From: Siphonodentalium dalli
Taxonomy: Eukaryota > Mollusca > Scaphopoda > Gadilida > Siphonodentaliidae
Direction of reading: 5' to 3'
Assembly (NCBI GenBank): GCA_032622095.1
Contig: CP136061.1
Coordinates: forward strand, 257,394,077-257,458,076
DNA length: 64,000 bases
This document shows positions 6,687 through 62,932 of this stretch, one piece after another. Below the pieces are notes generated by a model. The model was not told the origin of the DNA, searched no databases, and saw only the letters and a list, made by a program, of their open reading frames with translations. Position numbers and translations under genes: made by a program. Position 1 is the stretch's first letter. Each line of letters begins with the position of its first letter.

Positions 6687-6983
6687 TTAACCCTTTCAGT
6701 GCCAGGGCCGATCTCATCGGCCCTAGATTACGGTCTGTAAAATCGGCCCTAAAAAAATCAAAAAAATCACCAAGTATTCATAGTAATAAATTTGATGCCC
6801 ATGAAAACTAAGATTCCCTGGCACTAAACCTACAAAATAAGTCTGTTGATGAAAAATTGTTAGGCCAATGCATTCTCTTATATATGCGAGGCGACCTATG
6901 GTCGACTCGCATATATAAGAGAATGCATTGGCACAGGGTATATGGGTTGATACAAAAATTGGACCTGGCACTGAAAGGGTTAA
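6687..6983 (+). mobile_element. TTAA-2 miniature element, short form
   Basis: TTAA, then CCCTTTCAGTGCCAGGGCCG at the left and CCTGGCACTGAAAGGG plus TTAA at the right. One hairpin cassette sits near the right end. Compared with the 473-bp copy at 62460 the TTTTGGGTTGAATT segment is missing. piggyBac-like; no coding sequence. Confidence 0.9.
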
Positions 6984-7244
6984 TTCACCTGTGTGGTTAT
7001 GCACATTATTTCTGAACAGAATTATGAAGTTTAATTCCAGGTCTCATCTTCCCATTTGTGGATGGATGAGAGGAATTATATGAATATTGGAGGGAAGAAA
7101 TATAAGGGAATGACTTCCCACCCTCAGTATTCACTCCCTTGTTCTAGATTGTCAAAATTGCTCTCACTCGGCACGTCACTATACGAACAGATTATGTTAA
7201 AACTCTCATTCTCGAAGATTTCTGAGCGGAATTATGAAGTATAA

Positions 7245-7344
7245 TTAACCCTTAAACCCAACAGAACGGCCCTGTGCCAATGCATTCTCTTATATATGCG
7301 AGTTGACCAAAGGTCGCCTCGCATATATAAGAGAATGCATTGGC
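7245..7344 (-). mobile_element. TTAA-1 element, left fragment
   Basis: TTAACCCTTAAACCCAACAG followed by one full hairpin cassette and GGC. It stops exactly at the TTAA inside the GGCTTAACACATT stretch of the consensus, where the next TTAA-1 copy begins. This looks like insertion of one copy into the internal TTAA of another, with the rest of the older copy lost. Confidence 0.75.
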
Positions 7345-7750
7345 TTAACCCTTTACCCAACAGAACGGCCCTGTGCCAATGCATTCTCTTATATATGCGA
7401 GTCGACCATAGGTCGCCTCGCATATATAAGAGAATGCATTGGCTTAACACATTAAAAATTATAAAATTGTTAAAGAATGTAAGAAAAAATGGTAAAAAGT
7501 GTTAAAAAAAGGATTTTTTTTAGGCCAATGCATTCTCTTATATATGTGAGGCGACCTATGGTCGACTCGCATATATAAGATAATGCATTGGCACAGGGCA
7601 TAACTGTAACCATCACAATGTGGTCAAGGAGCCGGTTCCAATGATATCCATATTTGTATGGTTCTATTGAGACAGACCGAAGATATTTTAGGCTGTTGCA
7701 ATGAAGCTTTATTTGGCCAGTTTTGGCCGGTTTGTTGGGTAAAGGGTTAA
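7345..7750 (-). mobile_element. TTAA-1 miniature element, complete
   Basis: Inverted ends CCCTTTACCCAACA and TGTTGGGTAAAGGG flanked by TTAA. Order: hairpin cassette, AT-rich spacer (AACACATTAAAAATTATAAA), second cassette, then a unique segment with CCATATTTGTATGG and AGGCTGTTG. About 400 bp, the typical length of the family. Confidence 0.9.
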
Positions 7751-7802
7751 TACTTATTGGATTAAAAATGGTGATGTTGGGGTGTAAATTGAACTTGAGC
7801 CA

Positions 7803-8290
7803 TCATAACTTCTCCCTGATGACAGTGCACTTCTCCCTAATAACAGTTCACTTCTCCCTGATGACAGTCCACTTCTCCCTGATGACAGTCCACTTCTCCC
7901 TGATGACAGTCCACTTCTCCCTGATGACAGTCCACTTCTCCCTGATGACAGTCCACTTCTCCCTAATAACAGTCCACTTCTCCCTAATAACAGTCCACTT
8001 CTCCCTGATAACAGTCCACTTCTCCCTGATAACAGTCCACTTCTCCCTGATGACAGTCCACTTCTCCCTAATAACAGTCCACTTCTCTCTGATAACAGTC
8101 CACTTCTCCCTGATGACAGTCCACTTCTCCCTGATTAAAGTCCACTTCTCCCTGATAACAGTCCACTTCTCCCTGATAACAGTCCACTTCTCCCTGATAA
8201 CAGTCCACTTCTCCCTAATAACAGTCCACTTCTCCCTGATAACAGTCCACTTCTCCCTGATAACAGTCCACTTCTCCCTGATAACAGGGA
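7803..8290. repeat. Minisatellite, 21-bp unit, about 23 copies
   Basis: Unit CTTCTCCCTGATGACAGTCCA with variants (AATAACAG, GATAACAG). Because 21 is a multiple of three the array reads open as a heptapeptide repeat FSLMTVH over 194 codons. That frame is a by-product of the repeat period. The flank CTCCTAATTTAAAACCTC.AGGCCGGTTT resembles 16590-16620, so the array grew inside a dispersed repeat. Confidence 0.9.
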
Positions 8291-8439
8291 GAAGCGACTT
8301 CTCCTAATTTAAAACCTCTAGGCCGGTTTGTACCTGAGGCATGTAATAATACATGTATAGGTTTCTCAGGTAGATTAAAAACCAAGTAGCAACAAACATG
8401 CTATATAATTATGTGTTGAGGCATATTGAGGGACAAAGG

Positions 8440-8878
8440 GTCAGGTTACTACGTTTTCAACTTTTCGGTGAACAAAGACGAGGACCAGTTTATCGCACGG
8501 AATTTGACAAGAACTCTCTAAATTTCTGATTCATATGGAAGTAAAATTACATTTTAATGAATGATTTGCATCTCAAAGTTGATATAGCTGCTTTGTGAAT
8601 GAAAACTACTATCTAGCTGGCGTCTGTTATTGTTTTTGCGACTCTCATGTGACGTGTCTGTTTATTTCACCCGTCTGCCATTGTTTTTGCGACTCCTGTG
8701 TCTGTTTATTTCACCCGTCTGCCATTGTTTTTGCGACTCCTGTGTCTGTTTATTTCACTATCTAGCTGGCGTCTGTCTATACTCTCGTGTCTGTTTATTT
8801 CACACACCTAATGTCTCTTGTTGAATAGACTGATTCCTTGTCGAAATCTGCAAAATTCTGAAAAAGGAGTAACCTGAC
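8440..8878. mobile_element. Possible small TIR element
   Basis: An 11-bp perfect inverted repeat, GTCAGGTTACT at 8440-8450 and AGTAACCTGAC at 8868-8878, with further loose similarity just inside and outside. The interior holds about three tandem copies of TTTTTGCGACTCCTGTGTCT plus TTTATTTCACCCGTCTGCC (8630-8800). The target duplication is not clear. Non-coding. Confidence 0.4.
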
Positions 8879-9124
8879 GCCTCCAGCCATATTGAGGCAT
8901 ATTACATTTGTTCACTGGGTGACCAATCATTGGCAATGAACAGTAATTTAATCAGAGTAATTAAGGTAGTGGTCTCAGTGTAGGGTTCATTACTGCATAA
9001 AGGGTGTGAAGATATTCTAAATTCATACCGACAATATGTTTCAATCCATCCAATTTTTGCATGTGTTGACATTCCTACCTCTTGGGCTGCCCGTGTTGAG
9101 GTTCCACCCCTGGGAGTGCCCTGA

Positions 9125-9262
9125 GTTGCACTCTCTCACCTCACTCCCCCACACACATGAGGAATAACTGACATCTCCTCACATCCTCACCTCACTCCCC
9201 CACACACATGAGGAATAACTGACATCTTGTCACTTCCTCATCTCACTGATCCCACACACATG
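9125..9262. repeat. Short tandem repeat, about 50-bp unit, three copies
   Basis: Three consecutive imperfect copies of CCTCACCTCACTCCCCCACA plus CACATGAGGAATAACTGACA. The third is the most diverged. No gene is visible around it. Confidence 0.75.
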
Positions 9263-9517
9263 AGAAAGAACACACATTTCTTCAGCTTGCATGCCACTCT
9301 TCATATGTGACTCTTTAATTATTCAGATGGTATAATTTAATTATTACGTCTGGCAGAAAGTGGTTCCAGCACCCAATCATTGATGATGGAAGTTATCAAC
9401 ATGTTTTTTATTGTTAAATAAACACAGGTTCCAATCTCAAATCATTGATTTTGACTCCTCGATTCGACATTTGTGTGGGCGAGATTGATGGATTTAAAAA
9501 TGTACATACCTTGGGCA

Positions 9518-9720
9518 TCCAATGAATTTATATGTAAATTGGGATCCCACTTTAGCCGATGGGGTTAAATTGTAGACAAGTTCTTGTGAACTAGCCATTT
9601 TGGACTGGTTGGTACTTCCAATGAATTCATATTTAAATTAATTGTGAACCCATTTTAGTTGATAGGGTAAAATTGTATATACTACAAGTTCTTGAGAACT
9701 AGCTATTCAGGACTGATTTT
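9518..9720. repeat. Direct repeat, two copies of about 105 bp
   Basis: TCCAATGAATTTATATGTAA through GAACTAGCCATTTTGGACTG is followed by a second copy with CCAATGAATTCATATTTAAA and GAACTAGCTATTCAGGACTG. Diverged duplication, non-coding. Confidence 0.7.
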
Positions 9721-9929
9721 ACTGGATTCTTATAGCAATTTCCAATTTCTGCTAATCATTTTACAATGAAAAACATGTATTGGTAGGGAATTCTATACAA
9801 AATCTACCTAGTGCTGCAAAATGCTCTACAAAGATCTACAAATTAAAAAAATTAAATCGACCCCTGTAGCCACTTTGGACTGACAGATATAGAGGATTTC
9901 TAATGAGTCGCAACCCTATACAGAATTTA

Positions 9930-10346
9930 TTAACTCTTTCAGTGCCAGGGGCCGATCTCATCGGCCCTAATTTACATTTTTGTTTTTTTTAGATTTGGTT
10001 TGTTTTTTGGGTTGAATTTTTTTTGGGTATGCTTAAAAGCATGCTATAGCGAATTTAAAAACAAACTGGCTTAAACCTTAGGGACATGTATAACTCAAAA
10101 CTATCACCAAGTATTCATAGTAATAATTTTGATGCCCATGAAAAACGTAAGATTCCCTGGCACTAAACCTACAAAATAAGTTTTGTTAACGATTATAAGA
10201 AAAAATTATTAAAATTGTAAAAAATTGTAAAAAATAATAACAAATGAAAAATTGTTAGGCCAATGCATTCTCTTATATATAAGGGAATGCATTGGCACAG
10301 GGTATATGGGTTGATACAAAAATCGGACTTGGCACTGAAAGGTTAA
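9930..10346 (+). mobile_element. TTAA-2 miniature element, loop-deleted
   Basis: TTAACTCTTTCAGTGCCAGG on the left and TTGGCACTGAAAGG plus TTAA on the right. The body is full length, but the hairpin cassette has lost its tip: CATTCTCTTATATATAAGGG joins the two stem bases directly. The right TTAA is shared with the neighbouring TTAA-5 element. Confidence 0.9.
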
Positions 10347-10876: not shown

Positions 10877-11239
10877 TTAACCCTTTACCCAACAGAACGG
10901 CCCTGTGCCAATGCATTCTCTTATATATGCGAGTCGACCATAGGTCGCCTCGCATATATAAGAGAATGCATTGGCTTAACACATTAAAAATTATAAAATT
11001 GTAAGAATGTAAGAAAAAAATGGTAAAAAGTGTTAAAAACAGATTTTTTTTAGGCCAATGCATTCTCTTATATATGCGAGGCGACCTATGGTCGACTCGC
11101 ATATATAAGAGAATGCATTGGCACAGGTCAATGAGCCGGTTCCAATGATATCCATATTTGTATGGTTTTATTGAGACAAACCCAAGATAATTTAGGCTGT
11201 TGCAGCTTTATTTGGCCGGTTTGTTGGGTAAAGGGTTAA
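10877..11239 (-). mobile_element. TTAA-1 miniature element, complete
   Basis: TTAACCCTTTACCCAACAG at left, TGTTGGGTAAAGGGTTAA at right, two hairpin cassettes. It lacks a small piece after the second cassette (GGCACAGG runs directly into TCAATGAGCCGG). It sits immediately upstream of the retrotransposon ORF1-like fragment. Confidence 0.9.
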
Positions 11240-11244
11240 AGGAA

Positions 11245-11428: not shown

Positions 11429-11820
11429 TTAACCCTTTCAGTGCCAAGTCCGATTTTTGTATCAACCCATACACCCTGTGCCAATGCATTCTCTTATATA
11501 TGCGAGTCGACCATAGGTCGCCTCGCATATATAAGAGAATGCATTGGCCTAACAATTTTTCATCATTTGTTATTATTTTTTACAATTTTTTACAATTTTA
11601 ATAATTTTTTCTTATATTCATTAACAGACTTATTTTGTAGGTTTAGTGCCAGGGAATCTTACGTTTTTCATGGGCAACAAAATTATTACTATGAATACTT
11701 GGTGATAGTTTTGAGTTATAACATGCCACTAAGGTTTTAACCAGGTTGTTTTTAAATTCGCTATAGCATGCTTAAGCATACCCAAAAAAAATTCAACCCA
11801 AAAAAAAAATCATAAATTAA
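11429..11820 (-). mobile_element. TTAA-2 miniature element, one end missing
   Basis: TTAACCCTTTCAGTGCCAAG, CCCATACACCCTG, a hairpin cassette, then the usual body to GCATACCCAAAAAAAATTC. The far terminus (GGGCCGAT.AGATCGG and CTGGCACTGAAAGGG) is absent, so it was truncated after insertion. It interrupts the retrotransposon between ORF1-like and endonuclease parts. Confidence 0.85.
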
Positions 11821-11918
11821 TAGCAACTCAAATACAACAACGGAAAATATGCGTCATTTATACGGCTACTCGTCAACTTATATACACCAATGTTATATAC
11901 ACCAATGTTATATCCACC

Positions 11919-12506
11919 AATGTTATATTCATCAATGTACACTGCCTAATGAATAAACGCGATGAACTATACTCCTTACCGTTCAGAAAGAAAGGCCAGC
12001 TGTCATGTGCATCAAGTCTTCCCGAAAAACACCAAGAACAATGTGACATGTTTATAAATAAATCGCCTGAGAGGGGAATTATAATATATATGCACTAATC
12101 TCTTAAAGCAACTATGCACTCAGCTAGATGCAGCAAATTTCGTGGAATCAACAGGGTGTATGTGGACAAAAACAAAATGTGAGACCGTACTATATATAAT
12201 TGGAGGCGTTTATAGAAGTCCAACAACAACCGCTGAAAATACTACAAGTTGAACGATTTGATACAAGTCACTAAAACAGTCAAACACGATTTCCTTTTGA
12301 TCATGGGAGACTTAACTTCCCTGACATAAAGTGGGAATCATTCTTTCCACAGACTAGCGAACAAGGTGATAAATTCATTGAATGTCTCAGGAATTGTTTT
12401 TTGTCACAACTTATTTCTGAACCCATGAGACACAGGGAAAACCAGAAATATAATCTACTAGACTTAATAATTTCTAATCGAGATGACTTGATAACTCAAG
12501 TCAATT
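11919..12506 (+). pseudogene. Non-LTR retrotransposon endonuclease domain, N-terminal part
   Basis: A broken apurinic/apyrimidinic-type endonuclease of a CR1/Jockey-like retrotransposon. Readable pieces in order: INVHCLMNKRDELYSL (the usual start of the domain), SPERGIIIYMH (strand after the catalytic glutamate region), VLYIIGGVYRSPTTT, DFLLIMGD followed after a 1-base deletion by NFPDIKWES (the GDFN catalytic motif region), GDKFIECLRNCFLSQ, and NLLDLIISNRDDLITQVNF. At least two frameshifts and several stops, so not functional. In life this domain nicks target DNA for target-primed reverse transcription. A short 15-bp tandem repeat (ATATACACCAATGTT) lies just upstream. It is interrupted in the middle of a conserved stretch by a TTAA-1 element. 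Confidence 0.85.
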
Positions 12507-12892
12507 TTAACCCTTTACCCAACAAAACGGCCAAAACCGGCCAAATAAAGCTTCAACAGCCTAAAATATCTTCGGTGTGTCTCAATAGAACCATACAAAT
12601 ATGGATATCATTGGAACCGGCTCCTTGACCACATTGTGATAGTTACAGTTATGCCCTGTGCCAATGCATTCTCTTATATATGCGAGTCAACCGTAGGTCA
12701 CCTCGCATATATAAGAGAATGCATTGGCCTAAAACAAATCTTTTTTTAACACTTTTTACCATTTTTTCTTACATTCTTTAAAAAATTTATAATTTTTAAT
12801 GTGTTAAGCCAATGCATTCTCTTATATATGCGAGGCGACCTATGGTAAGAGAATGCATTGGCACAGGGCCGTTCTGTTGGGTAAAGGGTTAA
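12507..12892 (+). mobile_element. TTAA-1 miniature element inside the retrotransposon
   Basis: TTAACCCTTTACCCAACAAA to TCTGTTGGGTAAAGGGTTAA, inserted at a TTAA in the endonuclease frame (ITQVNF then TTAA). The first cassette is complete; the second has lost part of its tip (CGACCTATGGTAAGAGAATG). Orientation opposite to most copies in the window. The clean interruption of a recognisable coding frame proves this family inserts at TTAA. Confidence 0.95.
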
Positions 12893-13243: not shown

Positions 13244-14052
13244 TACAGTAATGACCTAAATAATCGTCTTCTTAACCACAGCAGAATTATGGGTAACTTT
13301 TCAGGATTTAGTCGGAAATATGGCTTGTTGCCATTCATCGGAAGCTCTCGGTGACTAAATCCTGAAAAGTTACCCATAATTCTGCTGTGATTAAGAAGTC
13401 GATTATTTAGAGCAGTAACCCGATAGCTTTCCGATGAATGGCAACAAGCCATATTTCCGACTAAATCCTGAAAAGTTACCCATAATTCTGCTGTGATTAA
13501 GAAGTCGATTATTTAGAGCAGTAACCCAAGAGCTTTCCGATGAATGGCAACAAGCCATATTTCCGACTAAATCCTGAAAAGTTACCCATAATTCTGCTGT
13601 GATTAAGAAGTCGATTATTTAGAGCAGTAACCCAAGAGCTTTCCGATGAATGGCAACAAGCCATATTTCCGACTAAATCCTGAAAAGTTACCCATAATTC
13701 TGCTGTGATTAAGAAGTCGATTATTTAGAGCAGTAACCCAAGAGCTTTCCGATGAATGGCAACAAGCCATATTTCCGACTAAATCCTGAAAAGTTACCCA
13801 TAATTCTGCTGTGATTAAGAAGTCGATTATTTAGAGCAGTAACCCAAGAGCTTTCCGATGAATGGCAACAAGCCATATTTCCGACTAAATCCTGAAAAGT
13901 TACCCATAATGCTGTGATTAAGAAGTCGATTATTTAGAGCAGTAACCCAAGAGCTTTCCGATGAATGGCAACAAGCCATATTTCCGACTAAATCCTGAAA
14001 AGTTACCCATAATGCTGTGATTAAGAAGTCGATTATTTAGAGCATTACTGTA
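13244..14052. mobile_element. FB-TA foldback element with an amplified arm
   Basis: Starts TACAGTAATGACCTAAATAA and ends AGCATTACTGTA, as expected for FB-TA. The right arm is repeated six times in tandem: AGCTTTCCGATGAATGGCAA begins at 13425, 13531, 13637, 13743, 13849 and 13952, a 106-bp period (103 for the last). Units 2 to 6 are almost identical (CAGTAACCCAAG junction), so the amplification is recent. Confidence 0.9.
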
Positions 14053-14134: not shown

Positions 14135-14403
14135 TTAACCCTTTCATAACGGGAGCTGCGCTGGTGCAGCATTAAAGATCCTGTGCCAGTGCATTATCGT
14201 ATATATGCAAATATCCCATAGGGAGCCTCACATATATAAGAGAATGCACTGGCTTACAAGGTCAATGTAAATATTGCTAGGCCAATATTTTCTCTTATAT
14301 TATGATATGCGAGGCTCCCTATGGGAGACTCTCATATATAAGATAATGCATTGGTACAGGGTTTTAGCAAAATTTCAGAAAGCTCCAGTCATTGAAGGGT
14401 TAT
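14135..14403 (+). mobile_element. TTAA-3 miniature element
   Basis: TTAACCCTTTCATAACGGGA and GAGCTGCGCTGG at left, AAGCTCCAGTCATTGAAGGG plus TTAT (changed TTAA) at right. Two hairpin cassettes with the same outer stem as TTAA-1/2 but a different tip: CTCCC TAT GGGAG in place of CGACC TAT GGTCG. Confidence 0.85.
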
Positions 14404-14444: not shown

Positions 14445-14658
14445 TACAGTAATGCCCTAAATAATCGGCTCCTTAACCACATCAGAATTATGTGTAATTT
14501 TTCAGGATTTAGTCGGAAATATGGCTTGTTCCCATTCATCGGAAAGCTCTCAGTGAGCTTTCCGATGAATGGCAACAAGCCATATTTCCTACTAAATCCT
14601 GAACAGTTACCCATAATTCTGCTGTGGTAAGGAGTGGATTATTTAGGGCATTACTGTA
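14445..14658. mobile_element. FB-TA foldback element, full length
   Basis: TACAGTAATGCCCTAAATAA to ATTTAGGGCATTACTGTA. Arms of about 100 bp meet at AGCTCTCAGTGAGCTTTCC. It follows the amplified copy by about 400 bp and has single, unamplified arms. Confidence 0.92.
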
Positions 14659-14888: not shown

Positions 14889-15288
14889 ATAACCCTTTAC
14901 CCAACAGAAGGGCCCTGTGCCAATGCATTCTCTTATATATGCGAGTCGACCATAGGTCGCCTCGCATATATAAGAGAATGCATTGGCTTAACACATTAAA
15001 AATTATAAAATTGTTAAAGAATGTAAGAAAAAATGGTAAAAAGTGTTAAAAAAAGATTTTTTTTAGGCCAATGCATTCTCTTATATATGCGAGGCGACCT
15101 ATGGTCGACTCGCATATATAAGAGAATGCATTGGCACAGGGCATAACTGTAACTATCACAATGTGGTCAATGAACCGGTTCCAATGATATCCATATTTGT
15201 ATGGTTTTATTGAGACAGACCCAAGATATTTTAGGCTGTTGAAGCTTTATTTGGCCGGTTTTGGCCGGTTTGTTGGGTAAAGGGTTAA
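14889..15288 (-). mobile_element. TTAA-1 miniature element within a duplicated flank
   Basis: ATAA (changed TTAA) CCCTTTACCCAACAGAAGG at left and GGTTTGTTGGGTAAAGGGTT AA at right; two cassettes. Host sequence on both sides is the same tandem unit (AGTATATACACCATCTAGTG to TTTCCATATGTATAGCCCA), seen at about 14800-14890, 15287-15377 and in part to 15437, so the element landed at a unit boundary. Confidence 0.9.
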
Positions 15289-18685: not shown

Positions 18686-19061
18686 TGATTTAGTGTGTCT
18701 GATGTTTACAGGATGGGGTCCCCAGAGGGTGAATTTAGTGATGCTAACCCGCAGAGCAGGCTAGCATCACCAAATTCACCCTCTCGGGATGTCATTATTT
18801 ATGGGCCTCTTTTTTTTGGGAGGTATTTAGTCTCAAATGAACACTTCTGTTCAGTTTCTATATTCTCTAATTTGTAGAAGATAAAATGCATAAACGAGGG
18901 TGAACATCGCCAGCTTCATCTTGGGAACAGCATTCTGATCCAAGGTCACCATAACAGTTGAGGCATAAGCAGAATTACATTCACGGAGGGTGAATTTTGT
19001 AACTAAATTCACCCTCTTGGGACCTCATTCTGCAAATTTGAGACACACTAAATCCAGGCTG
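18686..19061. mobile_element. hAT-like miniature element (family D), diverged
   Basis: GTGTGTCTGATGTTTACAGG, hairpin arms GGGTCCCCAGAGGGTGAATT and its inverse, the central GGTATTTAGTCTCAAATG to AATTTGTAGAAGATAAAATG segment, and a second hairpin that has lost its tip. The outermost CAAGCC end is eroded. Confidence 0.75.
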
Positions 19062-22848: not shown

Positions 22849-23768
22849 TTAAAGTGATGTGAAGCACTCGGGTAGGTGATAAAACAGAAATTAAGAATAA
22901 TCTTGCTCAAAGTAGTTATTTGTTACGAATATTAATCCAAATTGACAATACACACCGTGATTCTTATATATTAATTAAATGCAATGACTCTCGATGGCGA
23001 AATCATTTATGTTAGATTATCGCCGATAGTTGCATCCCAAATCGAGATGAAAATATTTACAATTGGCATAGTTCAGATGATGTTTTCTATGGTACAATTA
23101 ATATCATTAATTAGAGAACTCACTAATCGGCCATAAATTCATAATGCTGCCCTATTACTCACATGTTGTAACTTGTAAATTTGTAATTTTAGTTTTCCTA
23201 AAAGTTCCGGTAAACTTTCCCTTTTAGTTTGGATAAATGGGGTCAATTGGATCTGCTTAAATTTTGGAGTTGAGCCTTGACCACTTGTCTGAACTTCCGA
23301 ATCTACTGATATTTTGTGTTTTGTCGACAAATGTTTTTTCATTCCCGTTGTACTTCCCTTCGATCTGGCTATTACAGTATTGCGTTAGACCACCAACTGG
23401 CTCATGGGTGGTCATTTATCTTACATATTGATATAGCATCTAACTTCATACATGTTTGATATTCTCAAACAGAGATAAACAGGTGGCGCTCATCATCAAG
23501 TAAAGATTGTACCAAAATAATCAGAGTACTAAGAAGTTAGATGCTATATCAATATGTAAGATAATACTAATCCAATGATTCATGTTAATTCATTAAAGCA
23601 TTCATGTTTACTGCTGGAAATTTTGATACAAACATTTTTGATGGATGATGGATTTCTTTGAAATTTTCGGTTATGTTAGTAGAATGCTGCATTCCCCAGG
23701 TTGACATAGCGCCTTGGTGCTAACTTATCATTTTCTCGCACCCAAACAAGTCCATAATATGTCTTTAA
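22849..23768 (+). mobile_element. TTAA-5 (family F) element with inserted sequence
   Basis: Starts TTAAAGTGATGTGAAGCACT and ends AAGTCCATAATATGTCTTTA A, the full F outline, but the middle (about 23110-23640) holds a hAT fragment and the inverted K arm. F otherwise measures 359 bp (60476-60834). Confidence 0.8.
23112..23380 (-). pseudogene. hAT BED-finger fragment, copy 2
   Basis: Minus-strand reading MKKHLSTKHKISVDSEVQ, TSGQGSTPKFKQIQLTPF, IQTKRESLPELLGKLKLQIY, KLQHVSNRAAL, stop. It matches residues 42-120 of the BED protein at 24917, lacking 12 codons after GKL. The N-terminal cysteines are missing: the match ends near the codons for VIARSKRST. It ends with the same stop after the same C-terminal tail, so both copies derive from one already truncated hAT derivative. 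Confidence 0.75.
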
Positions 23769-24551: not shown

Positions 24552-25726
24552 CAGGGTTGTCAATAGGTACTGGTACCGGTACGGAATCGGCGGTAATCAG
24601 GAATTAAATCGGTACCGGTTCTGACGTCGAGTACCGACTGTTCTTGGTACTGATTGTTGATTTCTATTAATATACCTCTTGACGAATGTAAAGGGTTGAT
24701 TAAGCAGCTCAACATAAGACCCAACCCAACTGCAATGGGTTAACATTATATCGTCAGCACATTCAAACATCAAAGGCACACCGTGGCGCACTATGACAAC
24801 TTGTCACGAAATTGACAGAATGCAACATTTTGTGGGAGCTTGTGATGATTGTATTTCTTTGATGCGGCCTTTGAGAGGAGTCTGTTACTCTGTCAAGTTG
24901 TGATTTACGAATTACGATGGCATCCAGGAAATCTAGTCACGTCTGGTATAATTTTATACCACACGAAAATGACTTGCAGAAAGCCAGATGCGCCGAATGC
25001 AATACTGTAATAGCCAGATCGAAGAGAAGTACAACGGGAATGAAAAAACATTTGTCGACAAAACACAAAATATCAGTGGATTCGGAAGTTCAGACAAGTG
25101 GTCAAGGCTCGACTCCAAAATTTAAGCAGATGCCATTGACCCCATTTATCCAAACTAAAAGGGAAAGTTTACCGGAACTTTTAGGAAAACTGGCCGCTGT
25201 AGACAGAATTTGGGTGACATCATTTATGAAATTACAAATTTACAAGTTACAACATGTGAGTAATAGGGTGGCATTATGAATTTATGGCCGATTAGTGAGT
25301 TCTCTAATTAATTACCACACAAATAATATGGTGTACCGTGAGCCCGTGACACTGTGTGGCCGTCACTACCATGTATCCATACAATATGATACAAGCCTAC
25401 AATGTTAGCCAACCCAGTAGTCAAACATACATGTCTATATTCGTTCCACTCTGTATTCCGTGTTTTTAAAAATCGTCCCTTTGAGACTTGCCAAAAACCA
25501 CCACAGACAACAACTTAATTGTAAATGTCGTTGCGATTTTTATTTTCGTTGTTTGACTAAACCTCGAACTTAACGAATAATTGATGATGGAACCCACGAA
25601 ACCAAAGTTATTTGCAGTATAAAAGACCACTCAATGAGTACCGATACCGACGCGGTTTGCGGTACTGAACATCGGTACGGAACCGGTACCGAAAGTTGTG
25701 GTACCGTCGGTACTTTGACAACCCTG
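24552..25726 (+). mobile_element. Complete hAT element, internally deleted
   Basis: Ends CAGGGTTGTCAATAGGTAC and GTACTTTGACAACCCTG are inverted, and 8-bp duplications GTACCTGT flank both sides (24544-24551 and 25727-25734). Both are hallmarks of hAT transposons. Subterminal regions are rich in GGTACCGG motifs. At 1175 bp it is far below autonomous size; only the BED-finger gene remains and no catalytic DDE/dimerisation region is present. Confidence 0.95.
24917..25279 (+). CDS. BED zinc-finger protein of a hAT element (truncated transposase)
   Basis: A 120-residue protein with a BED-type DNA-binding finger: W10 and F13 aromatic positions, C25-x2-C28, then H45-x4-H50 (motifs ARCAECNTVIARS and KKHLSTKHK). 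It continues with a polar linker (SVDSEVQTSGQGSTPK) and PELLGKLAAVDRIWVTSF, resembling the start of the hAT transposase core, then ends in a short unrelated tail KLQIYKLQHVSNRVAL. In full hAT transposases the finger binds the element's ends and the downstream RNase-H-like domain cuts; that domain is absent. The start ATG is preceded by about 365 bp of element leader. The frame has no stop or frameshift. A DNA-binding-only product could compete with active transposase; that is inference. Confidence 0.7.
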   Translation: MASRKSSHVWYNFIPHENDLQKARCAECNTVIARSKRSTTGMKKHLSTKHKISVDSEVQTSGQGSTPKFKQMPLTPFIQTKRESLPELLGKLAAVDRIWVTSFMKLQIYKLQHVSNRVAL

Positions 25727-26266: not shown

Positions 26267-26704
26267 CAAGCCTTGAAATAGTGTGTCTGTCATTTGCAAA
26301 ATGAGGTCCCCAGAGGACGAAATTAGTGATGCTATATTTTATGGTGGACTAGCATCATCAAATTCACCCTCTGGGAACCTGATTCCGCTTAGGCCTCAAC
26401 TAATGCTATGGGAGACATGGGATACGATTATATTAAGTTCCCCAGTTGAAATTGGTAATGTTCACCTCGATTATGCAATTTATCTTCTGCAAAATAGGGG
26501 ACATAGAAACTGAACAGAATGGAAAAAGTAACTAAAAATAATGTTAATTTGAGATTTTAGATACTTCCCAGAAGATGAGGCCTAAGTAGAATCTGGTCCC
26601 CAGAGGGTGAACTTGCTGATGCTAGCCCTCTGTTTTGGGATAGCATCACTAAATTCAACCTCTGGGGACCTCATTCTGTAAATGACATACTATATTTCCA
26701 GGCA
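26267..26704. mobile_element. hAT-like miniature element (family D)
   Basis: CAAGCCTTGAAATAGTGTGT at left, two hairpins with GAGGTCCCCAGAGG arms, and CTATATTTCCAGGC at right. The central segment is inverted relative to the copy at 6153 (AGTTCCCCAGTTGAAATTGG precedes CCTCGATTATGCAATT). No clear target duplication. Confidence 0.8.
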
Positions 26705-27570
26705 TATTTATCAAGCTAATTAGATCCTGGACACTAGGCAGGGACATTGATATAACAAAAGCAACATAATTGGGGTTCAGGCCCCTAAAACCCTGATTTT
26801 AGCACTTAGAACTGTTAAAAATGGAACAATGGCTATCAATATTATTACAATTTAACTTATTGGGAGAAAAAATAACTATTTTTTGGAGTACATGCATTCT
26901 GGGATTCAGGGCTGAATCACAAAAATTGGGGTTCAGGCTGCTAAAACCTTAAATTTGGTTGTTTAACAAAAAAAATTACTTGAAAATGATGAGCATTAAT
27001 ACAATCTTTTAAGTGAATTGAATCGAAATATATTTTTTATTGTGGTGAAATCTAGGGGAAAATGGCTGGTTTAGGCCCATAAATCCCAACTTGGGCACCT
27101 TTTTGCAAAAATCTGCCGGCATCATGAAATTCCTCATCGAAAAGTAGCCTAGAAACCATTCTCAATATGAAGTGATGAACACCATTTCTCTAAATATTGT
27201 ATTTCTGAGACCGACTTTAATAATATGGATATAATGGAAAGCTTCAGACCACCATTAGTGCCTTTAAACATCCAAGCTCATATTGATTTAGGTAATTTCC
27301 TGCCTATAATATCTCGAAACACTACTGGAGCAGGAGATAATAGGTTTGCTGTATCAATATGCTGGTACTTATAATGCTGTCCTCAAAATCTCCTCCCAAT
27401 AGAGGTATTATAATTCCTGTTGACGTTTGCTGCCACATTCTGTGTGCCTTCTAATCACCAGAACATTACAAGCCCTAACATTCATGGGGCTTCTCTGCAA
27501 TTACCTTCTGTTCAGATTTAATTCTAAAACATTTCTATTTTCTTCGTAAAAGGGTTCAATCAGGTACTAA
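26705..27570. other. Non-coding, unrecognised
   Basis: Two diverged copies of a phrase with AATTGGGGTTCAGGC and CTAAAACC (about 26770 and 26930) suggest an old duplication. No reading frame or element end was recognised. Confidence 0.45.
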
Positions 27571-31291: not shown

Positions 31292-31844
31292 TTGTATATT
31301 AATTAAATGCATGCAATGACTCTTGATGGTGAAATAATTAGTGTTAGTTTAACGCTGATTGTTGCATCCCGAATCGAGATGTAAATATTTACAATTGAGC
31401 GTAATTCTGATGGTGTTTTCTATGGAGAAGTACGGTCGATTTGCTTCAAATTTTCGGCGATGTTAGTAGAATGCTACAGTCCTCCAGTTAGCATAGTGCT
31501 TAATTGTGTACTAACTTATCAATTTCACTCACCCGAACAAGTCCATAATATGTCTTTAAAGACCAACAAGTTATATCAAAATGTTCTTGTTACAGTTGAT
31601 TCATATTTTTTGTGTTCATGGAATTTTTTTACAACAAAAACATGTTTACAAAGATATTTGTTGTCTGATCTTGTTCGTTATCACTCTTAGAAATGTGGGG
31701 GGGGGAATTCTCAGAGTTACAGGTTAACTCTTCCATGACTGGAGCTTCCTGAAATATTGCAAACTCCCTTTACCAACATATATATAAGAGAATACATTGG
31801 CCTAATAATATTTACCTTGAGCTTGTAAACCAGTGCATTCTCTT

Positions 31845-32713
31845 TAGGGCCCTGCGAATCAATTTATGCGATTTGGAATCTTTCGTCTGATTTGATTTGA
31901 AATCGGCTGTCCTGATTCAAATTGTATCGAGTCATTGGCAACTGTTGCATTCTCAATGGACACCTTTGCTTTTTCACGAAGATAGATTATGATACCAATG
32001 AAAGATCACATACAGAAACACTTGTAGACTAAGCTACACTATATAGACCACCGAAGCATTGCACAACTGGTGTAACTGATATACAAAATTTCATATATGT
32101 CAAACTTCAGCCGCGTGAATGTGATTGCTTACTGACTTCTTGCTTAAGATACTGTTTCATTATTTTATAGCAGAGATGGACACAACAAATGCGCACTTAA
32201 TTGGTTAAATGTGAATTTGATCTATTTATGGATAATATTTACATTATATACCTACGACTTATCATTGTTACAAAGTGAGCAAATTGATACCGCGGTACGG
32301 CCACTCAGTCAAGTGATATCTATATCCTCACTCTCGATTCCACTGATGCAATGATTCAATTCAAGATTCGAGATTCAATTAGGAACAAGCCTTGAACTAG
32401 TGTGTCTGTCATTTGCAGAATGAGGTCCCCAGAGGGTGAATTTAGTGATGCTACTCCGCATAGCGGGCTAGCATCACCAAATTCATCCTCTGGGAACCTC
32501 ATTCTGATCAGGTATAAGCAGAATGAGGTCCCCAGAGGGTGAATTTGGTGATGCTAGCCCACTATGCGGGGTAGCATCACTAAATTCACCCTCTGGGGAC
32601 CTCATTCTGCAAATGACAGACACTATTTCGAGGCTTGATTAGGAATCAATTGGTTGATTCGATTCGATTCAAGATTCGATTTTAAATGAAAACACCCGAT
32701 TCGCAGGACCCTA
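31845..32713. mobile_element. hAT-like element O
   Basis: Ends TAGGGCCCTGCGAATC and GATTCGCAGGACCCTA are inverted; 8-bp duplications ATTCTCTT flank both sides (31837-31844 and 32714-32721). Subterminal regions carry repeated GATTCGATTC motifs. No transposase seen. It contains a family D element at 32386. Confidence 0.9.
32386..32637. mobile_element. hAT-like miniature element (family D), inside O
   Basis: CAAGCCTTGAACTAGTGTGT to ACACTATTTCGAGGCTTG with both hairpins and a much shortened centre (CTGATCAGGTATAAGC). Perfect 8-bp duplications ATTAGGAA on each side. One of two copies that set the target-site length for family D. Confidence 0.95.
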
Positions 32714-32774
32714 ATTCTCTTATATATGTGAGGCTCCCAATTGATTCGTAGCAACCTGACCAATTTTGCTCTAC

Positions 32775-32991
32775 TACAGTAATGTCCTAAATAATCGACT
32801 CCTTAACCACAGCAGAATTATGGGCAACTTTTCAGGATTTAGTCGGAAATATGGCTTGTTGCCATTCATCGGAAATCTCTCAGTGAGAGCTTTCCGATGA
32901 ATGGCAACAATCCATATTTCCGACTAAATCCTGAAAAATTACCCATAATTCTGATGTGGTTAAGGAGTCGATTACTTAGGGCATTACTGTA
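32775..32991. mobile_element. FB-TA foldback element, full length
   Basis: TACAGTAATGTCCTAAATAA to ACTTAGGGCATTACTGTA, 217 bp, arms of about 105 bp, centre TCTCTCAGTGAGAGCTT. A good reference copy of the family. Confidence 0.93.
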
Positions 32992-33942: not shown

Positions 33943-34332
33943 TTAACCCTTTACCCAACATAATGGCCCTGTGCCAATGCATTCTCTTATATATGCGAGT
34001 CGACCATAGGTCGCCTCGCATATATAAGAGAATGCATTGGCTTAACACATTAAAAATTATAAAATTGTTAAAGAATGTAAGAAAAAATGTTAAAAAAAGT
34101 TTTTTTTTTAGGCCAATGCATTCTCTTATATATGCGAGGCGACCTATGGTCGACTCGCATATATAAGAGAATGCATTGGCACAGGGCTAACTGTAACTAT
34201 CACAATGTGGTCAAGGAACCGGTTCCAATGATATCCATATTTGTATGGTTCTATTGAGACAGACCGAAGATATTTTAGGCTGTTGAAGCTTTATTTGGCC
34301 GGTTCTGGCCGGTTTGTTGGGTAAAGGGTTAA
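33943..34332 (-). mobile_element. TTAA-1 miniature element, inside family D
   Basis: TTAACCCTTTACCCAACATA to GGTTTGTTGGGTAAAGGGTT AA with two cassettes. It is inserted at the TTAA of the D centre (TCTCAAATTAACAT), which is present uninterrupted in other D copies (for example ATCAAATTAACATT at 6309). Confidence 0.93.
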
Positions 34333-43183: not shown

Positions 43184-43332
43184 CAAGCCTTGAAATAGGG
43201 TGTCTGTCATTTGCAGAATGAGGTCACCAGAGGGTGAATTTAGTGATGCTACCCCGCATAGCGGGCTAGCATCACCAAATTCACCCTCTGGGGACCTCAT
43301 TCTGCAAATGACACACCCTATTTCAAGGCTTG
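43184..43332. mobile_element. hAT-like family D, single-hairpin form
   Basis: 149 bp, nearly one perfect palindrome: CAAGCCTTGAAATAGGGTGT, CTGTCATTTGCAGAATGAGG and arms to a tip CCCCGCATAGCGGG, then the inverse ending GGCTTG. Flanked by perfect 8-bp duplications TATATAGA. The D centre and one hairpin are missing, yet the ends and target duplication are intact. Confidence 0.95.
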
Positions 43333-43767: not shown

Positions 43768-44175
43768 TTGACCATTTCATGGCGAGAGCTGCGCTGGCGC
43801 AACAGTAAAGACCCTGCGCCAATGCATTCTCTTGTATACATGTATGCGAGTCGACCATAAGTCACCTCGCATATATAAGAGAATGATCTGGCCTAACAAT
43901 GTTTTATCACTTTTTATAAACTTTTCTTACATTCTGTAAAAACTTTTATCATTTTTTATAATAAAAAAAAATCTTATATTTTTTAACATTTTTTTTATCA
44001 TTTTATTATCTTTATTTCTTACATTCTTTAACAAATTTTTATCCTTTTTTCATTACATTTTTTAACAATTATAAAAAATAATATAAAATTTGTTAGGCCA
44101 ATGCATTCTCTTATATATGCAAGGTCGACATGGTTTTTGCAAAAATTCATGAAGCTCCCATCATGAAAGGGTTAA
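43768..44175 (+). mobile_element. TTAA-3 miniature element
   Basis: TTGACCATTTCATGGCGAGA (degraded TTAACCCTTTCAT) with GCTGCGCTGGCGC at left, GAAGCTCCCATCATGAAAGG plus GTTAA at right. The first cassette has the TTAA-1 type tip (GCGAGTCGACC); the second is truncated. Centre is a long T-rich stretch. Confidence 0.8.
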
Positions 44176-46736: not shown

Positions 46737-46952
46737 TACAGTAATGCCCTAAGTAATCGACTGCTTAACCACAGCAGAATTATGGGTAACTTTTCAGGAT
46801 TTAGTCCGAAATATGGCTTGTTGCCATTCATCGGAAACCTCTCAGTGAGAGCTTTCCAATGAATGGCAACAAGCCATATTTCTGAATAAATCCGAAAAAT
46901 TATCCATAATTCTGCAATGATTAATGAGTCGATTATTAATGGCATTACTGTA
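46737..46952. mobile_element. FB-TA foldback element, full length
   Basis: TACAGTAATGCCCTAAGTAA to ATTAATGGCATTACTGTA, centre CTCTCAGTGAGAGC. Slightly diverged right arm. Confidence 0.93.
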
Positions 46953-49837: not shown

Positions 49838-50174
49838 TTAACCCTTTACCCAACAACGGCCCTGTGCCAATGCATTCTCTTATATATGCGAGTCGACCAT
49901 AGGTCGCCTCGCATATATAAGAGAATGCATTGGCTTAACATATTAAAAATGATAAAAATGTAAGAAAAAATTATTGTAAGAAAAAATGGTCGACTCGCAT
50001 ATATAAGAGAATGCATTGCCACAGGGCATAACTGTAACTATCACAATGTGGTCAAGGAGCCGGTTCCAATGATATCCATATTTGTATGGTTCTATTGAGA
50101 CAGACCGAAGATATTTTAGGCTGTTGAAGCTTTATTTGGGGCGTTCTTGGCCGGTTTGTTGGGTAAAGGGTTAA
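49838..50174 (-). mobile_element. TTAA-1 miniature element, partly deleted
   Basis: TTAACCCTTTACCCAACAAC to GGTTTGTTGGGTAAAGGGTT AA. First cassette complete; the spacer and the left half of the second cassette are deleted (TGTAAGAAAAAATGGTCGAC). Confidence 0.93.
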
Positions 50175-56531: not shown

Positions 56532-56607
56532 ATTTTATGTGACAACATTAGCTACATATATTATTTATCTATCGGACAACACTTGCCTTTTGTGAGGTAA
56601 ATCTGTC

Positions 56608-58268: not shown

Positions 58269-58474
58269 TACAGTAATTCTCTAATTAATCAACTTCAGAA
58301 TTATGGGTAACTTTTCAGGATTTAGTCGGAAATATGGCTTGTTGCCATTCATCGGAAAGCTCTCCCTGAGAGCTTTCCGATGAATGGCAACAAGCCATAT
58401 TTCCGACTAAATCCTGAAAAGTTACCCATAATTCTGCTGTGGTTAAGAAGTCGATTAATTAGAGCATTACTGTA
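58269..58474. mobile_element. FB-TA foldback element, full length
   Basis: TACAGTAATTCTCTAATTAA to AATTAGAGCATTACTGTA, with long near-identical arms meeting at GCTCTCCCTGAGAGC. The left arm lacks the CTCCTTAACCACAG segment. Confidence 0.92.
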
Positions 58475-58784: not shown

Positions 58785-59866
58785 CAGGGATTTTTCTGCC
58801 TATTTTGGGAATGGGTCCGGGTCCGTTCGAATTGGGAAAAATGTGTCTTTACAGACCAAAATTGGGAATTTTCCATGTTTTAGAAAAATTCAATTAATCA
58901 CTGTAAATAGTACTAATACCGTAATTTTCGGTGTATAACGCTACTTAAACACAGGTAACTCAAAGATGGAGTAAAATCCCAGCCCATTGAGGTCCATTTC
59001 TCAGCCTCAGGTAAGTTCAAAATTCACAGATAACGGAAGGATTCAAGCCATCCACCAAACTTCGATAATGAACAGTAAAACGGTAATGAAACACACAAGG
59101 ATGGATAGGTATCTAGTTGTAATTCAAATTATTCAATAAATAAAATAAAATAATTAATACCAAATCAATGTGTCCGTGTTATTCCCATATTGAGGTACCC
59201 AGTACGGTACTACTCTCGGGCCCCAAATAAACATGCAGACCCAAATAATAGTGCAGGGGGGGATTTCCAGCAAATGTTTATAAAATTAACAGTGAGGACG
59301 TGAAATTTTTATATTTTATACATAACTCGGCAAGCTTATTCTTCTCCGCAAGATTATATTTTTGTTTAAATGGAGCCCCATGCTGCCACAGTAAAAAATC
59401 TGTATTCCGGTAACCACGTGGTGCATCTCCCCTAATAATGAGATAATCCTGCTGCAAACGTCATGGATACACGGCTTAATCGTAAACCGATGAGTCCACT
59501 TTTAAAGGCATGCGGGGAGGGGAAATGTGTATTCTGGAAGAACTTGGTGCATCCCCCTGATAATGAGATAATCCTAGCAATCACGTGCGCGAAAGTAATG
59601 GATACTGGCTTACAAGTCGGATGCGGCCACTTTCAAATGAATGCGGGGAGGTAATCACCTGGCTCGCCCTGCTATTTTTATTTGTGGGAATTCCTCTCAA
59701 GCGAGTGAGGTATTTAATATAATAACTGTCAAACTTTGATAATTATTCAATAAACCCGATGGTATTATATACCTGCCTGCAATTGGGAATTTGGTGGTTG
59801 AAAATTGGGAATAAAGGTGCCTTTTTCCCATTGGGAATGGGGCCGTTTACCTAAAAAAAATCCCTG
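58785..59866. mobile_element. TIR element W with CAGGGATTTTT ends
   Basis: CAGGGATTTTTCTGCC at left and TAAAAAAAATCCCTG at right, with GGGAATGGGTCCGGG and GGGAATGGGGCCG also pairing inversely. AATTG directly flanks both sides (possible 5-bp duplication). Inside is a diverged direct duplication of about 130 bp (CACGTGGTGCATCTCCCC.TAATAATGAG to ATGCGGGGAGG). CAG termini fit a hAT relative; not proven. Confidence 0.7.
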
Positions 59867-59899
59867 AATTGTATTATCATTTCATCTGCTCATATATCC

Positions 59900-59971
59900 T
59901 TAACCCTTTACCCAACAAACTGCCACCTGTATGGGGCTCCCTAAAGGAAGCTCCAGTCATGGAAGGGTTAA
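59900..59971. mobile_element. 72-bp hybrid TTAA element
   Basis: The left end TTAACCCTTTACCCAACAAA belongs to TTAA-1, the right end AAGCTCCAGTCATGGAAGGG TTAA to TTAA-3, with only about 35 bp between and no cassette. Either a recombinant of two families or an extreme deletion form. Confidence 0.7.
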
Positions 59972-60018
59972 AATACTTACCAGGGGCTGTAACATCCACA
60001 CAACTTCATTGTTACATC

Positions 60019-60418
60019 TTAACCCTTTTCCCAACAAACCGGTCAAAACCAGCCAAATAAAGCTTCAACAGCCTAAAATATCTTCGGTCTGTCTCAATAG
60101 AACCATACAAATATGGATATCATTGGAACCGGCTCCTTGACCACATTGTGATAGTTACAGTTATGCCCTGTGCCAATGCATTCTCTTATATATGCGAGTC
60201 GACCATAGGTCGCCTCGCATATATAAGAGAATGTATTGGCCTAAAAAAAATCTTTTTTTAACACTTTTTACCATTTTTTCTTACATTCTTTAACAATTTT
60301 ATAATTTTTAATGTGTTAAGCCAATGCATTCTCTTATATATGCGAGGCGACCTATGGTCGACTCGCATATATGAGAGAATGCATTGGCACAGGGCCCTTC
60401 TGTTGGGTAAAGGGTTAA
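60019..60418 (+). mobile_element. TTAA-1 miniature element, complete
   Basis: TTAACCCTTTTCCCAACAAA to TCTGTTGGGTAAAGGGTTAA, 400 bp, two cassettes, same orientation as the copy in the retrotransposon at 12507. Confidence 0.95.
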
Positions 60419-60475
60419 TATAATAACAACCCTCCAAATAAATAAACAAATTCCTTAGGAAATGTTTAGATAACA

Positions 60476-60834
60476 TTAAAGTGATGTGAAACACTCGGGT
60501 CGTGCGATCAGATAAGAAATGGACAATAATCTTACGAATAGTAACAAAAATTTACAGCACACACATCGTCATTCTTATATATTAGTTAAATGCAATGACT
60601 CTCGATGGCGAAACCATTTGCGTTAGTTTATCGCCGATTGTTGCGTCCCGAATCGAGATGTAAATATTTACAATTATGCGTAGTTCGGACGATGATATCT
60701 ATGGAGTGGTATGGTGACTTTCTTTGAGATTTTCTGTGATGTTAGTAGAGTGGTACATTCCCACAGTTGGCATAGCACCTGAGTACTAACTTATCAGTTT
60801 CACGCACCCGAACAAGTCCATAATATGTCTTTAA
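60476..60834 (+). mobile_element. TTAA-5 (family F) element, complete reference copy
   Basis: TTAAAGTGATGTGAAACACT CGGGT to ACCCGAACAAGTCCATAATA TGTCTTTAA, 359 bp with TTAA on both sides. Ends share AG and an inner CGGGT/ACCCG. No tandem array: TCATTCTTATATATTAGTTA AATGCAATGACT occurs once, the ancestral state of the array in the copy at 27696. Confidence 0.9.
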
Positions 60835-61355
60835 TGAACTTATTGTCTGAACATTTCCCTCCAATAAATAGGACTCCTTCCAGCTCATTCTGCACATCCC
60901 ATATTTTCCCTTCAGATGAAAGATAGGCCATTCCCTTGAAGAATCTATTTAGTAAAGAATGGATTATTTAATGGTGCATGATTGCTGTTATTATGGGACT
61001 CTTTCCTGTGTCTGTCCTGACAATCCCTCTATGTTCTGTTGTCACGCTCATTGATCATTTGTTAACTTAAACAGTATTTTTGAATAATACAACAAAAGAA
61101 ATTATACCAGAATTATATAGTATATACATTTATTTATGGACCGGATTCGACATCAAGCATATGGGCTTATGTTAGTCGCTTCTGGGAATCAGTTTTTATC
61201 CATTACACTCGACACTTATAGGTAGTGATTTTCCCGATAAACCGACTAGCAGATTTCGGGATCGACTTATTTAATAATCACATCGATTAGCCGGATAATC
61301 GTTTCAACACTATTCTTCTCAAGATTTACCTCATATAGTCCAACAACTATTAAAG
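60835..61355. other. Non-coding, partial repeat
   Basis: Mostly unassigned. GATTTTCCCGATAAACCGAC and TAGCCGGATAATCGTTTCAA (about 61220-61310) look like the subterminal part of a decayed hAT-type element, but no matching second end was found. Confidence 0.3.
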
Positions 61356-61584
61356 TTAACCCTTTGAGTGCCAGGTCCGATTTTTGTATCGACCCATATA
61401 CCCTGTGCCAATGCATTCTCTTATATATGCGAGTCGACCATAGGTCGCCTCGCATATATAAGAGAATGCATTGGCCTAACCCAAAAATTAAAAATAAATT
61501 TTTTATTTTTTTTATTTTTTTAGGGCACTCTACAGACCATAACTTAGGGCCAATGAGATCGGCCCCTGGCACTAAAAGGGTTAA
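61356..61584 (-). mobile_element. TTAA-2 miniature element, short form
   Basis: TTAACCCTTTGAGTGCCAGG to CCCCTGGCACTAAAAGGG plus TTAA, one cassette, T/A-rich remnant of the body. GCCAATGAGATCGGCCCC matches the TTAA-2 left end. Confidence 0.92.
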
Positions 61585-62459
61585 GGCCCACTGCTATATA
61601 TAAACAGAGTTTTAGCCCCCATGTTATGAAATATAATTGAGTTTTGGTGCGAAATGTGAACATGCGCGTCGTTATTTAAGCGTTTGTGCTTGGGGGCCCC
61701 ACGCGGGATAACGAAACTATTATTGACCGTACTTTGACTTTATCTTCATATCGGGCAGCTGTATTGGGGGATATGATTTTGCACGGGATCTCCAAGCATG
61801 AGTAGTTTCATACACAGAAATCCTGTGCACAAAATATCCATATCGGCAGTCTGGCATTATTTGATGTTTCCACAAAATTTTCATATGTTTATTATGCTAT
61901 ATATGCTATATACAACGTCACTATTTGACTGCACACCAAACATTGCGCATTGTAGTTTTGGCGCTTTTATTTCCAAGGGTTACACTGTACTGGTAACATA
62001 CGATTCTCAATTGACCGGTTTTTCACCAGTATTCTGTAAACTCTCTAATTCCCGTTTCAGTCAGATTTTTTTTCACGATAGATTGCTATTGACTTTAGGT
62101 ACATGTACGTCTCAAACAGATCATCAGCGATGGGAATGAGGGGGAAACCCTGCTATAAGAGAGGTTAAAAATGACCGAGGGAGTTTGTTGTCTGTGAGAC
62201 GGTCCCACGAGAGAGTTGTCCACCTTATGTTCTCTGGAACCATTAATCAGTGTGACACATATCATGTGATTATTAGATTGTCCTATCACTCCATGTTTAA
62301 TTATACGCCCATCATCAGATCGAAGGTGTACTGGATTACATGCCTGACCCGTTCTCCGTCCGGAAGAGCCGTCCAAGCAGGTATCTTATAACACATGTTG
62401 TCGGATCTGAATGTAATTTGGTATGGATGTTCACCATTAATAGGACATTGAGAGGAGTG
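61585..62459. other. Unique-looking sequence, no gene recognised
   Basis: Contains frames of 113 codons (plus, 61798-62139) and 93 codons (minus, 62095-62376), both without recognisable domains. GGGGGCCCCACGCGGG near 61690 is locally GC-rich. No known repeat. Confidence 0.35.
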
Positions 62460-62932
62460 TTAACCCTTTCAGTGCCAGGGGCCGATTTCATCAGCCCTAA
62501 TTTACGTCTGTAAAATCAGCCCTAAAAAAAATAAAAAAATACATATTTTTTTAAAAGATTTTTTTGGGTTGAATTTGTTTTGGGTATGCTTAAGCATGCT
62601 ATAGCAAATTTAAAAACAAACTGGATAAAACCTTAGGGGCATGTTATAACTATCACCAAGTATTCATAGTAATAATTTTGATGCCCATGAAAAATGTAAG
62701 ATTCCCTGGCACTAAACCTACAAAATAAGTCTGTTAAAGAATATAATAAAAAATTATTAAAATTGTAAAAAATTGTAAAAAAATATAATAACAAATGATG
62801 AAAAATTGTTAGGCCAATGCATTCTCTTATATATGCGAGGTGACCTATGGTCGACTCGCATATATAAGAGAATGCATTGGCACAGGGTATATGGGTTGAT
62901 ACAAAAATCGCACCTGGCACTGAAAGGGTTAA
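62460..62932 (+). mobile_element. TTAA-2 miniature element, full-length reference
   Basis: TTAACCCTTTCAGTGCCAGG to CACCTGGCACTGAAAGGGTT AA, 473 bp. Order: end, GGCCGAT inverted motif, TTTTGGGTTGAATTTG and GCTTAAGCATGC, AAGTATTCATAGTAATAAT, A-rich stretch, one cassette, right end. Confidence 0.93.

Follow-up and report, generated by a model that had tools for sequence, protein, structure and literature searches.

How do transposable element families with different terminal repeats come to carry one and the same long hairpin? The question is raised by a stretch of 64,000 nucleotides from the scaphopod mollusc Siphonodentalium dalli (assembly GCA_032622095.1, contig CP136061.1, positions 257,394,077 to 257,458,076 of the forward strand), hereafter the window. 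In it, short elements flanked by TTAA fall into three families with distinct tips, T1, T2 and T3. A first-pass annotation, made from the letters of the window, had described a hairpin stem repeated in all three, always inside TTAA-flanked elements, and had proposed that it is a functional module exchanged between families. With confidence that falls just short of even, we favor a reading in which these families of miniature inverted-repeat transposable elements (MITEs), putatively of the piggyBac type, retain a common palindromic core, most likely a subterminal palindrome bound by the transposase, and have replaceable ends.

The arm of the hairpin, GCCAATGCATTCTCTTATAT, is matched 48 times in the window when up to three mismatches are allowed, whereas shuffled sequence yields a mean of 0.02 matches and a maximum of 1. 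These arms make up 27 hairpin cassettes, 69 base pairs (bp) in length when whole and spread over 17 units (Table 1); the census combines local alignment with the 69-bp cassette, reading of the sequence and scans for tips. All 27 cassettes lie inside units with at least one recognisable TTAA tip, which bears out the association described in the first-pass annotation. T1 comprises eight elements (E0, E2, E4, E6, E8, E10, E12, and E14) and one partial tandem unit, T2 five elements (E1, E3, E5, E15, and E16), and T3 three (E7, E9, and E11). The numbers of cassettes per family given earlier, two in T1, one in T2 and two in T3, were likewise recovered; the two cassettes of a T1 or T3 element are inverted relative to each other. 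Counted unit by unit, two cassettes are present in E2, E4, E6, E7, E8, E9, E10, E11, E12, and E14, and a single one in E0, E1, the tandem unit, E3, E5, E15, and E16. Some are incomplete: that of E0 is truncated by the window edge, that of E3 is reduced to 38 bp, a different transposon sits within the second of E9, and E6, E9, E11, and E12 have a deletion in one cassette each.

From the tip inward, the order is CCCTGT, the 69 bp of the cassette, and YTAA. The cassette folds into a hairpin whose ATA loop is closed by a 5-bp stem, separated by one T.C mismatch from an outer stem of 27 bp; its energy of -35.4 kcal/mol (DNA energies; z -15.6) is equalled by none of 200 shuffles. Its borders are identical in five contexts (T1 left, T1 right, T2, T3 left, and T3 right). 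The consensus is equal in T1 and T2, three T2 copies (E1, E5, and E15) being identical to the T1 cassette at 69 of 69 bases. The exact 20-base arm has no match in IMG/VR contigs and none in GTDB genome contigs, as expected of a eukaryotic repeat.

Analysis of the ends reveals exact TTAA on both sides of 11 of the 17 units; one copy is mutated in three (E7, E8, and E11), and one end is missing in three more (E0, at the window edge, E5, and E9). The exact tip TTAACCCTTT/AAAGGGTTAA occurs 28 times in the window, against 0.3 in random sequence. The termini are 5'-CC and GG-3', and the terminal motif CC[C/T]T is present in inverted orientation. Elements with both ends measure 229-473 bp and are therefore too short for a transposase gene, a criterion judged on length, the element translations not having been scanned for protein families. 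Judged by their TTAA duplications and CC..GG tips, they are best classified as non-autonomous MITEs of the piggyBac (TTAA) type. Kolobok elements also have TTAA target-site duplications, but their termini are 5'-RR and YY-3' (PMC9587614, in the part of that paper available to us), and with termini of 5'-CC and GG-3' in the window this candidate was rejected.

Six elements were measured for the distance between tip and cassette, and in all three families some cassette lies 26-47 bp from one tip or both. T1 is asymmetric, its cassettes standing 26 bp from one tip and 113, 148, or 149 bp from the other; in T2 the values are 47 bp and, toward the opposite tip, 173 or 349 bp, and E7 of T3 has 46 and 44 bp.

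Common spacer and differing arms

The families had been held to share almost nothing outside the cassette and a CCCTT start. This no longer applies, since the cassette borders, CCCTGT outside and YTAA inside, are also common to them, as is an AT-rich spacer beside the cassette, which aligns across families in the same orientation. For E14 of T1 against E16 and E5 of T2 and against E11 of T3, and for E16 against E11, the score of the spacer alignment is reached by 0 of 500 dinucleotide shuffles, and by 0 or 1 of 500 in every one of nine tests against Markov models, order 1 to 3, fitted to the individual spacers. Two antisense controls are unremarkable (423 and 81 of 500 reach the score). The spacer of E15 has no detectable match to the shared one (326 of 500 shuffles score as well), and the 27-bp spacers of E7 and E9 were scored only against each other. 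Because the spacer aligns across families, hairpin and spacer descend together, the hairpin being the part that every family keeps.

The arms between tip and cassette were compared after removal of TTAACCCT and CCCTGT, and none of 20 cross-family pairs aligns convincingly. Closest are T1 short and T3 left, whose score is reached by 15 and 16 of 300 randomised pairs, followed by T2 right and the right arm of E11 (22 of 300). Within families the arms do align, namely the left and right arms of T2 with each other and, side for side, the arms of E7 with those of E11 (0 of 300 each). Cassettes mostly outside TTAA-tipped units, or arms that diverge gradually from one family to the next, were looked for in the window; every cassette proved to lie in a TTAA-tipped unit and the arms are without gradual divergence. 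The core of E7 combines a CTCCC/GGGAG-type inner stem (ATCCC in the left cassette copy) with the 27-bp spacer, and E9 agrees with it where readable. E11 has ends like those of E7, though its core has a T1-type stem and a long spacer. Besides one core with several ends, there is thus one set of ends that carries two core versions, and part of this core difference could be due to decay or deletion of the spacer.

Sequence changes also distinguish the cassettes from the rest of the elements. Seven T1 copies have 8 changes at 909 cassette sites and 35 at 1575 remaining sites, and four T2 copies have 2 at 239 and 48 at 1188. Private changes, counted with the exclusion of sites next to gaps and pooled over T1 and T2, are 10/1148 versus 71/2763 (odds ratio 0.33, P=0.0005), so that the cassettes carry about one third of the private load found in the remaining sequence. 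Over the aligned sites, E15 is 10-17% divergent from the remaining T2 copies, yet agrees with the cassette consensus at 69 of 69. Of the earlier proposal, the module as such is supported by the five-context borders, the fewer changes and the non-aligning arms, whereas its exchange is not distinguished from inheritance with replaced ends.

In E7, paired substitutions preserve the stem. The count of pairs covers 22 cassettes, which make 12 distinct rows; of the 27, it leaves out both cassettes of E9, the one of E3 and the two half cassettes of E11 and E12. Three pairs are changed on both sides, all of them from E7; as many pairs are reached by 35 of 500 shuffles, and the cell number (5) or the covariation score by 0 of 500. 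The paired changes of E7 are the history of one lineage.

Explanations for the common core

In the reading that we favor, the core consists of CCCTGT, the 69-bp near-perfect palindrome, YTAA and usually the AT-rich spacer; T1 and T3 add a second, inverted palindrome, and the differing terminal arms are joined to this core. A transposase of the piggyBac type would bind the palindrome as a subterminal site, so that active copies retain it. The tips would then require little beyond TTAA-CCCTT, which would leave the arms open to replacement (for example through template switching while the gap left by excision is repaired) and would let one transposase, or a few related ones, serve several tip types. 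The location of the palindrome at 26-47 bp from a tip and its maintenance in three families with varying arms would fit a binding site. In piggyBac itself, both ends hold identical 19-bp palindromes, placed asymmetrically from the tips, and in the dimer two cysteine-rich domains bind the palindrome (PMC11707139, available part). The elements of the window resemble piggyBac and piggyBat ends, as described in the same part of that source, in TTAA, CCC tips, subterminal palindromes and the asymmetric T1 distances. For two of the tip types, the idea of one transposase, put forward in the first-pass annotation, receives a hint from a 72-bp hybrid at 59900-59971, which may reflect the pairing of T1 and T3 tips by one enzyme; a deletion between neighboring elements explains the product equally.

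Several observations weigh against a transposase-binding palindrome. The hybrid has no cassette, so any movement of it was cassette-free. Compared with the available description of piggyBac (PMC11707139), the palindrome is much longer (69 bp as against 19 bp), T2 has a single cassette, at one end only and far from the other tip, and the spacing of E7 is symmetric. The deficit of private changes is not significant in T1 alone (P=0.15), nor after removal by hand of clusters adjacent to indels (P=0.69); alignment noise in the AT-rich spacer may inflate the change count outside the cassettes. The paired substitutions are confined to one element, their pair number being within reach of shuffled sequence as given above. 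Finally, long hairpins also occur in the window's hAT-like and mariner-like MITEs, which are unrelated to the T families; hairpins are thus not specific to TTAA elements, and palindromes are either favored by several transposases or made and kept by the genome for another reason.

These other MITEs form at least two families. The 8-bp duplications of family A (tips CAAGCCTTGAAATAG) point, we presume, to hAT elements, as do those of an insert at 31845-32713, and the TA that flanks the tip CAGTAATGCCCTAAATAATCG of the palindromic family B presumably points to a mariner-type element. The arm of family A is matched 22 times in the window, in single and twin-inverted forms; the 8-bp duplications TATATAGA and ATTAGGAA are seen in two of the four elements with both ends (43184-43332 and 32386-32637), and the single form at 43184 is one end-to-end hairpin of -79.7 kcal/mol. 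An ATA loop occurs in four of the eight family A hairpins listed. In three of these four, the loop is followed by five base pairs and a single mismatch, just as in the T cassette; in the fourth, at 32420, pairs five and six are mismatched. Homology between the two hairpins was considered and rejected, similarity not exceeding chance (out of 3000 shuffles, the score is reached by 388 for the 20 bases beside the loop, by 754 for the entire arm, and by 140 with a T3-type arm); the resemblance is one of layout only. Hairpins of this layout in family A imply that the cause may be more general than piggyBac.

Such a cause is offered by the possibility, in our opinion a doubtful one, that the hairpin is a by-product: long palindromes would arise and spread by fold-back template switching and gap repair, serving as the site where families pair and swap ends, and their apparent conservation would be due to recopying and not to any need of the transposase for them. 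This agrees with the further hairpin MITEs of the window, which make up at least two families, have target-site duplications other than TTAA and in one family are both single and twin-inverted; it also agrees with the several cassettes without inner parts and the 99-bp unit in tandem. However, none of the 10 cassette changes in T1 and T2 copies is mirrored on the opposite arm, so that recopying between arms is unseen in resident copies, and borders identical in five contexts are unexpected of random exchange tracts. A recurrence of apex geometry, twin-inverted layout and polarity in the hAT-like family A is also the basis of a more far-reaching proposal, which we regard as improbable. According to it, the internal palindrome and not the terminal repeat would define the families, and a shared factor would recognise a fixed apex (ATA loop, 5-bp stem, and one Y.C mismatch just outside), with interchangeable tips; this factor would possibly act across transposon superfamilies, for instance on a hairpin extruded during replication.

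The three families might also be one old family, with a common ancestor whose arms and tips diverged or were replaced stepwise in separate master lineages, without exchange and with a hairpin that merely changes slowly. The codescent of cassette and spacer is in line with this, as are the start CCCTTTCA shared by T2 and T3 tips and the closest cross-family arms, T1 short with T3 left and T2 right with the right arm of E11. We nevertheless find it unlikely, as those arm values are unremarkable among 20 cross-family comparisons and a single divergence rate misfits T1 and T2, where cassettes are equal, spacers partly alignable and arms not. It is very improbable that the cassette acts as RNA, the hairpin of a read-through transcript being cut into small RNAs or otherwise regulating the elements: the near-perfect stem of 27 + 5 bp, very stable for its composition (DNA energies), and the paired substitutions of E7 would suit such a role, but Rfam gave no match at gathering score, and paired changes that all occur in one element are equally expected of a DNA palindrome read by a dimer. 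For roles as RNA or in the replication of foldbacks, both listed in the first-pass annotation, the window holds no positive evidence. Insertion of the core as an independent element into three hosts was set aside on reading the copies, where no TTAA or other duplication stands beside the core, a judgement made without a statistical test.

Catalogue of elements and their surroundings

The coordinates of all units are collected in Table 1, together with the hybrid and the members of families A and B.

Table 1. TTAA elements and other hairpin MITEs of the window (positions in the 64,000-nucleotide stretch)
Element	Family	Positions	Strand	Cassettes	Remarks
E0	T1	1-80	-	1-50 (partial)	truncated at window edge
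E1	T2	6687-6983	+	6864-6932	TTAA both ends
Tandem unit	T1, partial	7245-7348	+	7276-7344	in tandem with E2; tip, short arm and cassette; stops at starting TTAA of E2
E2	T1	7345-7750	+	7375-7443, 7524-7592	
E3	T2	9930-10346	+	10259-10296	cassette shrunk to 38-bp palindrome
E4	T1	10877-11239	+	10907-10975, 11054-11122	
E5	T2	11429-11830	-	11480-11548	without recognisable second end (end approximate)
E6	T1	12507-12892	-	12660-12728, 12808-12862	latter cassette with 14-bp deletion
E7	T3	14135-14403	+	14185-14253, 14281-14355	right duplication TTAT
E8	T1	14889-15288	+	14919-14987, 15067-15135	left duplication ATAA
E9	T3	31724-32736	-	~31776-31801 (partly deleted); second split by hAT-like element	end approximate
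E10	T1	33943-34332	+	33973-34041, 34112-34180	
E11	T3	43768-44175	+	43818-43892, 44097-44134 (half)	T1-type core, long AT-rich spacer; left tip degenerate (TTGACC)
E12	T1	49838-50174	+	49866-49934, 49986-50020 (half)	
Hybrid, 72 bp		59900-59971	.	none	T1 tip left, T3 tip right; TTAA both ends
E14	T1	60019-60418	-	60172-60240, 60320-60388	
E15	T2	61356-61584	-	61407-61475	short; shared spacer undetected
E16	T2	62460-62932	+	62813-62881	longest T2
Hairpin MITE	A	6153-6602, 26267-26706, 32386-32637, 43184-43332			
Palindromic MITE	B	3563-3697, 14446-14657, 32776-32990, 46738-46951, 58270-58473			single tips elsewhere

The tandem unit beside E2 is 99 bp in length and is one partial copy, not a full-length array. 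One-ended transposition is a possible origin, but tandem duplication explains this single case equally well, and so does the insertion of one T1 into an internal TTAA of another T1, followed by collapse. The hAT-like element that interrupts the second cassette of E9 has the tips TAGGGCCCTGCGAATC and the 8-bp duplication ATTCTCTT, and itself contains one of the family A copies, that at 32386-32637. Further family A hairpins or halves lie near 18722, 33225, 33543, 33805, and 40046. A 106-bp tandem repeat at 13353-14044 (6.6 copies, 99% match) is built from the inside of family B and is a satellite growing from a MITE.

Protein-coding remnants were also observed among ten pieces of the window compared with Pfam. 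To the left of E6, an open reading frame remnant at 12275-12506 resembles an endonuclease-reverse transcriptase (Pfam Exo_endo_phos_2, E 5e-5, below the curated cut-off), and a 22-residue piece to the right of E6 has no Pfam match. Two similar BED zinc-finger remnants, at 24875-25276 (zf-BED, E 4.9e-9) and 23142-23384 (E 0.0031, below the cut-off), are possibly pieces of a hAT transposase.

Relation to coral elements

A close parallel is provided by the coral MITEs (CMITEs) of Acropora millepora and A. palmata. According to the part of the coral report available to us (PMC2872659), to which all comparisons in this paragraph are limited, these are TTAA-flanked families that differ in their terminal repeats and are more conserved inside, some of them forming tandem arrays, and the tip motif together with the internal region was suggested to be possibly sufficient for transposition. 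CMITEs and the elements of the window have in common TTAA duplications, CC[C/T]T tips and several end types around a more conserved inside, and the tip of CMITE family VI, CCCTTTCACTGCCA, is identical to that of T2 at 13 of 14 bases. On the other hand, CMITEs are about 100 bp in length, whereas window elements with both ends present measure 229-473 bp. Of tandem arrangement the window has a single case, the partial T1 unit at 7245-7348. No match links the cassette to the 60-base core published for CMITEs, which scores 13 where shuffles reach 21; the best score of that core against the window is 27, compared with 22-25 for five random windows, and was not counted as a match. The folding of the CMITE core is at chance (z -0.65), in contrast to the z of -15.6 of the cassette hairpin, which is twin and inverted in T1 and T3. 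From this comparison, CMITEs appear to be the same phenomenon and a close precedent, what differs being the hairpin core, often twin and inverted. In searches of the open-licence PMC papers, no report of the cassette was found, and the cassette and tip strings gave no paper.

The assignment of a MITE to a family and to a transposase usually rests on its terminal repeats, and the coral study, in its available part, left open why the inside outlasts the ends. In the window, a second case whose core is unrelated in sequence, the conserved part is plainly palindromic and lies close to the tips. This offers a concrete reason: the transposase may bind to the palindrome and require of the tips no more than a short motif. 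It also points to the interior of such elements as a part that can be more important than the termini. If this is true, families with different tips could be mobilised together, and a classification based on ends would overlook their comobilisation.

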